Below, one piece after another: positions 24,551 through 25,499 of a stretch of DNA of 34,142 bases (the stretch's first letter is position 1; the number at the start of each line of letters is the position of its first letter). This stretch comes from Pseudoroseomonas ludipueritiae (lineage in GTDB: Bacteria; Pseudomonadota; Alphaproteobacteria; Acetobacterales; Acetobacteraceae): assembly GCF_014490445.1 (NCBI RefSeq), contig NZ_JACTUZ010000034.1, forward strand, positions 1 through 34,142, given 5' to 3'. Made by a program: the position numbers and the translations under genes. The notes under the pieces were generated by a model, which saw only the letters and a program-made list of their open reading frames with translations, made no database searches and was not told where the DNA came from.

Positions 24551-24686
24551 TTTTCACTCTGAAGGCGAAAACACAGCCCCGGCCTCTTCCGAAGCCCCAA
24601 GGGTGATCGGCAAATTTATGGCCCAGCCTTAGATTGCTGAGTCGAAATATTTTACGCCGCACGATCCCTTGAGGAATATGGATAAA

Positions 24687-24699
24687 TAAGCTTTTGATT
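24687..24699 (-). promoter_or_regulatory. Candidate IHF-binding site
   Basis: TAAGCTTTTGATT matches the reverse of the IHF consensus (YAANNNNTTGATW) at every defined position. It sits in AT-rich DNA 16 bp upstream of the sigma-54 -24 element, where IHF bends DNA to bring an enhancer-bound activator to the polymerase. Confidence 0.5.
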
Positions 24700-24715
24700 T
24701 AATTCGTATTTTTCT

Positions 24716-24732
24716 TTGGCATCGGTATTGCA
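24716..24732 (+). promoter_or_regulatory. Predicted sigma-54 (-24/-12) promoter of the PEP-CTERM gene
   Basis: TTGGCATCGGTATTGCA fits TTGGCACGNNNNTTGCW except for one or two bases between the two elements. The essential GG and GC doublets are 10 bp apart, as required. Transcription would start about 24743, leaving a leader of about 39 nt. RpoN-dependent control of PEP-CTERM genes (with PrsK/PrsR) is described in other bacteria. Confidence 0.65.
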
Positions 24733-24743
24733 AGAGATCTCGC

Positions 24744-24757
24744 GGGGCACGTGCCCC
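24744..24757. promoter_or_regulatory. Perfect 14-bp palindrome at the predicted start of transcription
   Basis: GGGGCACGTGCCCC starts one base after the predicted sigma-54 start site. It could be a repressor operator or, in RNA, pair between transcripts or between its own arms. Confidence 0.45.
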
Positions 24758-24781
24758 TAAGCCGCAGTGTGGAGATCACCG

Positions 24782-25447
24782 ATGACATCATTCAAATGGC
24801 TTGGTACGGCGATCCTCGCCGGCTTTGCCTGCCTCAGCATCTCGGCCGCCCAGGCCGCCCCCGTCGTCTCGAACCCGACCTTCACCGCCGGGGCCCTGAC
24901 CTTCGACACCTTCACCGTGTCCGTGACGAGCTTCGGGCAGGCCTTCCCGAACGCGGATGACCAGGTCAACGTCAACCTGATCCCCGGCAATCCCAGCCCG
25001 GGGCTGGAGTTCTCGAGCGGCTTCATCGCCCAGAACAACGGCTTCAGCGATGCGGCGATCTCCTACGTCGTCCGCGGCGCCACGGCGGTGAGCTCCGTCG
25101 GCCTCTCCTTCGATGGCAGCTTCCTCGGCCAGGCGATCGCCTCCGTGACGGAAACCATCTGGGCTGACGCCGCGCGGACGATCATGATCGGCCAGGCCTA
25201 TGTTTCCTGCGCGATCGCCGGCTGCAGCCTGTCCGATGTCGTGACGCTGAGCGGTTCCTACGAGACGCTCTACATCACCAAGGACATCAACGTGAGCGCC
25301 TTCGTGCAGGGCGACCGCGCGCAGACCAGCATCATCAACCAGACCTTCAACCCCACCCCGGTTCCGGAGCCCGCGACCCTCGCGCTCTTCGGCACGGGCC
25401 TGGCGGCCCTGGGCCTGGTGCGCCGGAAGCGCAGCAAGGCCGCCTAA
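24782..25447 (+). CDS. PEP-CTERM sorting-domain protein
   Basis: A 221-aa exported protein. The signal peptide MTSFKWLGTAILAGFACLSI ends near AAQA|AP. A beta-rich Ser/Thr/Asn-rich ectodomain follows (VSVTSFGQAFPNADDQVNVN, LEFSSGFIAQNNGFSDAAIS), with a possible disulfide loop CAIAGC. The C-terminus is a textbook PEP-CTERM tripartite signal: VPEPATLALFGTGLAALGLV then RRKRSKAA. Exosortase cuts such tails and the proteins end up at the surface with exopolysaccharide. No exosortase or EPS gene lies in this window. GGAG 8 nt before the ATG at 24782 favours it over the in-frame GTG at 24767. The ectodomain family is not recognised. The predicted sigma-54/IHF promoter region lies directly upstream and an intrinsic terminator follows. 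Confidence 0.9.
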   Translation: MTSFKWLGTAILAGFACLSISAAQAAPVVSNPTFTAGALTFDTFTVSVTSFGQAFPNADDQVNVNLIPGNPSPGLEFSSGFIAQNNGFSDAAISYVVRGATAVSSVGLSFDGSFLGQAIASVTETIWADAARTIMIGQAYVSCAIAGCSLSDVVTLSGSYETLYITKDINVSAFVQGDRAQTSIINQTFNPTPVPEPATLALFGTGLAALGLVRRKRSKAA

Positions 25448-25469: not shown

Positions 25470-25499
25470 AAGGGCCGGACCCGCATGGGTCCGGCCCTT
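25470..25499. terminator. Bidirectional terminator between the PEP-CTERM and SYLF genes
   Basis: A perfect 13-bp stem (AAGGGCCGGACCC / GGGTCCGGCCCTT) with a GCAT loop. It is followed by CCTTTA on the + strand and TTTT on the - strand, so it should stop both convergent genes. Confidence 0.88.

Follow-up and report, generated by a model that had tools for sequence, protein, structure and literature searches.

What switches on the gene for a 221-amino-acid PEP-CTERM protein in Pseudoroseomonas ludipueritiae, and is that gene a lone exosortase substrate or one member of a regulon? The gene lies in a stretch of 34,142 nucleotides (the window, from contig NZ_JACTUZ010000034.1) of a 5.35-Mb genome assembled in 394 contigs (completeness 99.78%). 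A sequence-only reading of the window had proposed a sigma-54 (RpoN) promoter with an adjacent integration host factor (IHF) site upstream of this gene. Our analysis indicates that the region is very probably a PEP-CTERM-box promoter: sigma-54-dependent, activated by PrsR, belonging to a dispersed XrtA/PEP-CTERM regulon, and equipped with a built-in IHF site. Its parts are as follows.

24640–24656, forward strand: motif 1, putative site of the enhancer-binding protein PrsR, AGTCGAAATATTTTACG; found as a de novo motif and resembling the published PEP-CTERM motif 1 discussed below.
24687–24699, reverse strand: IHF-consensus element, AATCAAAAGCTTA, an exact WATCAANNNNTTR match; predicted to bind IHF.
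24716–24732, forward strand: motif 2, the sigma-54 −24/−12 element, TTGGCATCGGTATTGCA; read from the sequence.
24743, forward strand: predicted transcription start, 12 bases past the C of the −12 GC.
24782–25447, forward strand: PEP-CTERM protein gene (221 aa, ATG at 24782), with PF07589 and TIGR02595 matches.

In motif 2, TTGGCA (24716–24721) and TTGCA (24728–24732) are separated by six bases, leaving ten between the GG at 24718–24719 and the GC at 24730–24731; the −24/−12 element named by the sequence-only reading is thus present, and it ends 49 bp before the PEP-CTERM ATG. It matches 11 of the 13 positions of the sigma-54 −24/−12 promoter consensus, YTGGCACGNNNNTTGCW, and since sigma-54 promoters start transcription about 12 bp after the −12 GC, a start near 24743 is expected. 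Alone, such an element proves little, because the loose consensus is not enriched over shuffled sequence: TGGCACN5TTGC with up to two mismatches occurs 45 times in the window, against 45.66 expected. This frequency favors the view that a chance TGGCA-N-TTGC string stands upstream of an unrelated gene that uses an ordinary promoter. The strict form, TTGGCANNNNNNTTGCW, has only three matches in the 5.35-Mb genome, two of which end 49 and 39 bp before PEP-CTERM ATGs; the third (contig C384) was rejected as a promoter, being coding sequence at the 3′ end of a TetR-regulator-like open reading frame (ORF; judged by eye). Set beside the genome-wide pattern described next, an origin by chance is barely credible.

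The PEP-CTERM protein model matches the genome at 15 places with E up to 10; ten matches exceed the Pfam cut-off used, and the five weaker ones were dropped. All ten retained genes carry motif 1 together with a sigma-54 element, and the window gene therefore belongs to a dispersed regulon and is not the "single orphan substrate" it had been taken for. A de novo expectation-maximization search recovered the 17-mer nGTCGGnAnnTTTTACR in 10/10 PEP-CTERM upstream regions; the copy at 24640–24656, which the sequence-only reading had missed, lies at about −103 to −87 relative to the predicted start and is separated from motif 2 by a 59-bp spacer. No second copy was found upstream within the window, the next best site (7.2) overlapping the main one (26.4). 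The GG-N10-GC element begins 53–100 bp before the ATG in every case (for C212, counting from the second in-frame ATG). In leave-one-out scoring, each of the ten genes again yielded motifs 1 and 2 at the same positions, with scores of 23.5–43.9. As a comparison set, 325 upstream regions of ORFs in the retrieved loci, some of these ORFs spurious, were given scores by the model built from all ten genes. Their median was 1.0 and their 95% point 12.1, and the eight highest scores belong to seven PEP-CTERM upstream regions, of which one is entered twice. The ten genes are not fully independent, because C329 and C212 are close paralogues (by eye).

The composite pattern GTCGN5TTTKAC-N38-68-GGCN7TTGC has six matches in the genome, and all six lie ahead of PEP-CTERM genes; the same pattern reversed, as a control, has none. 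The genome encodes one rpoN (PF04552, 228 bits) and one exosortase, XrtA (291 bits; cut-off 208), the latter inside an XrtA gene cluster; the lack of either had been named as grounds for abandoning the proposal, and the suggested dispersed exosortase regulon under RpoN gains support from these data. Of the genome scan it called for, the part concerning PEP-CTERM genes was borne out in 10/10. The exosortase-cluster contig C224, scored whole, contains no composite over 22 and so gives no sign that exosortase and exopolysaccharide (EPS) genes share the element. Two other motif-1 matches were not counted: one before an ORF on C329 (pair score 23.5) lacks a good −24/−12, and a good one at L117 4617–4633 (C27, the prsT contig), before a glycosyltransferase-like ORF (24.8), lacks a convincing sigma-54 element.

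A survey of 150 genomes of the family extends this picture. The strict composite yielded 69 matches in 33 genomes, with 9 for the reversed control. A PrsR over cut-off was found in 35 of the 150, although PrsR proteins may have been missed because only 10 candidates were scored per genome; box and PrsR occur together in 20 genomes (Fisher 1e-7, phylogeny ignored). Of the 63 matches outside the source genome, 59 were examined, 51 of them with a full motif 1; the other four lack it. A PEP-CTERM-like ORF follows 37 of these 51 full-motif composites, from 19 genomes, by an ORF rule later and laxer than that behind an earlier figure of 17 of 30 loci, which included our own L102 and matches without the full motif.

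These relatives also bear on the IHF-type element, the weakest claim of the sequence-only reading. An exact match to the IHF consensus, WATCAANNNNTTR, is indeed present, with 16 bases between it and TTGGCA; it is the only one in the window, and two more occur in 244 kb of other stretches of the same genome. On its own the match is a modest one (0.013, from 400 order-1 resamplings of the 59-bp AT-rich spacer); its weight comes from the recurrence of the same position in other promoters. Across the 37 promoters of 19 relatives, the sequence 16–17 bp before motif 2 matches the consensus at a mean of 6.43 of nine positions, whereas permuted consensuses reach 3.87 (sd 0.51), and none of 4000 attains 6.43. 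The nine other promoters of the source genome average 6.0 matches vs 3.53 (sd 0.40) for permuted consensuses, none of 5000 being as high, and six of its ten promoters, that of the window included, have at least 7/9 matches at this offset. These data suggest that IHF may bind and bend the DNA at 24687–24699. Placement of IHF between the enhancer and −24 is common among sigma-54 promoters, and IHF-assisted examples (nif, Pu and the like) have the order activator site, IHF site, −24/−12. The window has this order too; unlike them, its activator site is close (59-bp spacer) and its activator would be of PrsR type.

The distance between motifs 1 and 2 is likewise constrained. In the source genome the spacers are 40, 49, 49, 59, 60, 60, 61, 61, 61, and 62 bp; among the 37 promoters of relatives, 12 fall at 49–52 and 25 at 59–62, with none at 53–58. 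All 57 full-motif rows (six from the source genome included) comprise 14 at 49–52, 39 at 58–62, two at 40–41, and one each at 37 and 54, in a test whose pattern admits spacers of 35–65 only and to which many genomes contribute several rows. The 18 rows with spacers under 57 are not uniformly distributed (simulated p 0.00025), and their period is poorly defined because most fall in one class. The spacing thus appears to come in classes one helical turn apart. In both classes the IHF-type element stands at the same distance from motif 2, which would place the one-turn difference between motif 1 and that element.

Several observations weigh against a PrsR-driven promoter with an IHF site, and the first concerns IHF itself. 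Four of the ten promoters in the source genome have fewer than 7/9 consensus matches at offsets 16–17 (C335, 1; C16, 6; C369, 4; C35, 5), and column −19 in relatives is mostly A where the IHF consensus has T (15 A and 7 T of 25). Both points suit an account in which promoter and PrsR box are real and the fixed element is an intrinsic bend or a site for some other protein, bending or regulatory, such as HU or a second regulator. The remaining informative columns nonetheless fit IHF (of 25: −30 Y 20, −29 A 19, −28 A 17, −23 Y 22, −22 T 20, −21 G 18, −20 A 16, −18 W 22), and no permuted consensus among the 4000 equaled the IHF score. An AT-rich tract commonly flanks IHF sites on one side, here the side facing motif 2, and the 15 bases that separate the element from motif 2 do have a high AT content (0.63 vs 0.41 upstream of the element). 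We therefore regard a factor other than IHF as unlikely, though a serious contender.

The remaining objections concern the box and its activator. The lowest-scoring promoter of the source genome (C16) and the best non-PEP region of the comparison set both reach 23.5, and 14 of the 51 full-motif composites, some at contig ends, have no PEP-CTERM-like ORF downstream. With 10 candidates scored per genome, PrsR over cut-off was not found in 8 of the 24 full-motif genomes (the source genome included), and six of these eight carry boxes before PEP-CTERM ORFs (G000, G004, G045, G050, G119, G137). Conversely, 15 of the 35 PrsR genomes have no strict composite; of two genus-mates, G107 has PrsR and G016 has none, and neither has the composite. 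Genome G045 has three boxes before PEP-CTERM-like ORFs (L134, L090; 3.37-Mb contig). The family survey found no PrsR in it, and a tblastn search of the 120 kb surrounding its boxes found no PrsR, PrsK, or XrtA; in G045 the box may genuinely exist without PrsR.

Finally, no whole PrsK or PrsR was found in the source assembly at the model cut-offs, the best match to the PrsR model reaching 359 bits against 502.6. This shortfall, and the presence of three strong sigma-54 activators (NtrC, 697 bits; NtrX, 699 bits; and a DctD-like protein encoded next to dctA, together with a dCache kinase), would favor a box now read by an NtrC-, NtrX-, or DctD-like protein after loss of PrsR. A fourth activator match (29 bits, C394) covers part of the domain only. 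The edge of contig C122 holds 39 codons of the prsR 3′ end; the flanking contigs break inside prsT and a chain-length gene, and the 3′ part of prsT lies at a contig end. Loss of PrsR was considered and set aside on this contig-end evidence: the apparent absence of PrsR and PrsK is most likely an assembly gap, and a substitute activator is very improbable. A joined query (sugar transferase, export protein, and first third of PrsT) gave only distant matches (31%–43% identity, C44 and C146) or none. The ends of C224 and C158 (L025 17202–17250 and L071 1–49) share 49 identical bases between diverged copies of a chain-length/P-loop gene pair; this marks a second EPS-type locus, followed on C158 by a 1058-aa ORF resembling RND transporters (by eye). 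A motif pair on C122 scores 22.9.

An RpoN/PrsR box upstream of PEP-CTERM genes is already known, having been predicted in 2006 (PMC1569441). As described in the consulted portions of that paper, the cis-site in Proteobacteria consists of a 17-nt motif 1 ending in TTTACA, a spacer of 62.8 (sd 10.6), and a 17-nt sigma-54 motif 2 lying 71 (sd 38.5) from the ATG; motif 1 was assigned to the activator PrsR, and PrsR, PrsK, and PrsT co-occur with the site (Haft 2006, PMC1569441). The window resembles it in its 17-nt motif 1 ending in TTTAC-R, its 59-bp spacer (criterion 32–92), its 49 bp to the ATG, and its setting—a single-gene unit in a genome with several PEP-CTERM genes and an exosortase. Those portions give spacing as mean, sd, and range only and name no spacer element, integration host factor, or phasing; relative to them, the fixed IHF-consensus element and the turn-sized spacing classes are what is added here. 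In Aquincola tertiaricarbonis, transcription of pepA needs rpoN1, as a mutant indicates, and primer extension maps its start at a −24/−12 element (PMC9850573). That gene, too, is a PEP-CTERM gene with a GG/GC −24/−12 element and an enhancer-like sequence upstream; unlike the window gene, it is tied to floc formation, and the consulted portions mention no IHF site. The binding mode of the box is reported in the consulted portions of neither paper (PMC1569441, PMC9850573). In the searched literature, which covers few subscription journals, no description was found of a fixed IHF-type element with turn-sized spacing at PEP-CTERM promoters or of helical phasing of a PEP-CTERM enhancer ("helical" occurs in Haft 2006 only within a reference title). 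Nor was PEP-CTERM found together with the abbreviation IHF there, though "integration host factor" co-occurs with it in Geobacter and fruit-fly symbiont work.

The window gene carries further features downstream of its promoter.

24771–24774, forward strand: Shine–Dalgarno-like GGAG, from the sequence.
25358–25426, forward strand: VPEP C-terminal sorting motif of the 221-aa protein, from the profile match position.
25470–25499, forward strand: intrinsic-terminator-type hairpin directly 3′ of the gene, from RNA folding.

The protein scores 30 bits against PF07589 (cut-off 20.7) and 29 bits against TIGR02595 (cut-off 16), and its N-terminus looks like a signal peptide by eye. The hairpin (−29.5 kcal/mol, z −5.16; none of 200 shuffles equally stable) suggests a single-gene transcript. 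A NUDIX protein is encoded upstream of the gene and a SYLF-type protein downstream on the opposite strand. A perfect palindrome, GGGGCACGTGCCCC, occupies 24744–24757, starting one base past the predicted transcription start; as a structured element of the 5′ leader it was rejected, its fold being no better than shuffles (z −0.19).

Read together, the elements are consistent with a mechanism in which PrsK, presumably on a signal, would phosphorylate PrsR, which would then bind the 17-bp motif 1 at 24640–24656. IHF would bind and bend the DNA at 24687–24699, bringing the AAA+ ring of PrsR into contact with the closed complex of sigma-54 RNA polymerase at 24716–24732; PrsR would open this complex, and transcription would begin near 24743. 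The surface protein would be exported and sorted by XrtA, with the other PEP-CTERM genes switched on together. Steps of about one helical turn in spacing would hold PrsR to a single side of the helix. More generally, we lean toward regarding the PEP-CTERM box as a three-part, rigidly phased enhancer unit, consisting of a PrsR site, an IHF bend fixed 16–17 bp before the sigma-54 element, and a motif 1 favored only at about 40, 50, or 61 bp; with such rigid phasing, PrsR would always meet the polymerase on one DNA face.

For this group of bacteria, calls of "PrsR absent" in draft genomes can stem from assembly gaps where the prs locus is duplicated. The fixed IHF-type element and turn-sized spacing offer a concrete geometry, by which members of the regulon may be recognized from three elements instead of two. 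If the three-part unit is real, expression of exosortase substrates would depend on IHF, a growth-phase factor, in addition to PrsK and PrsR.
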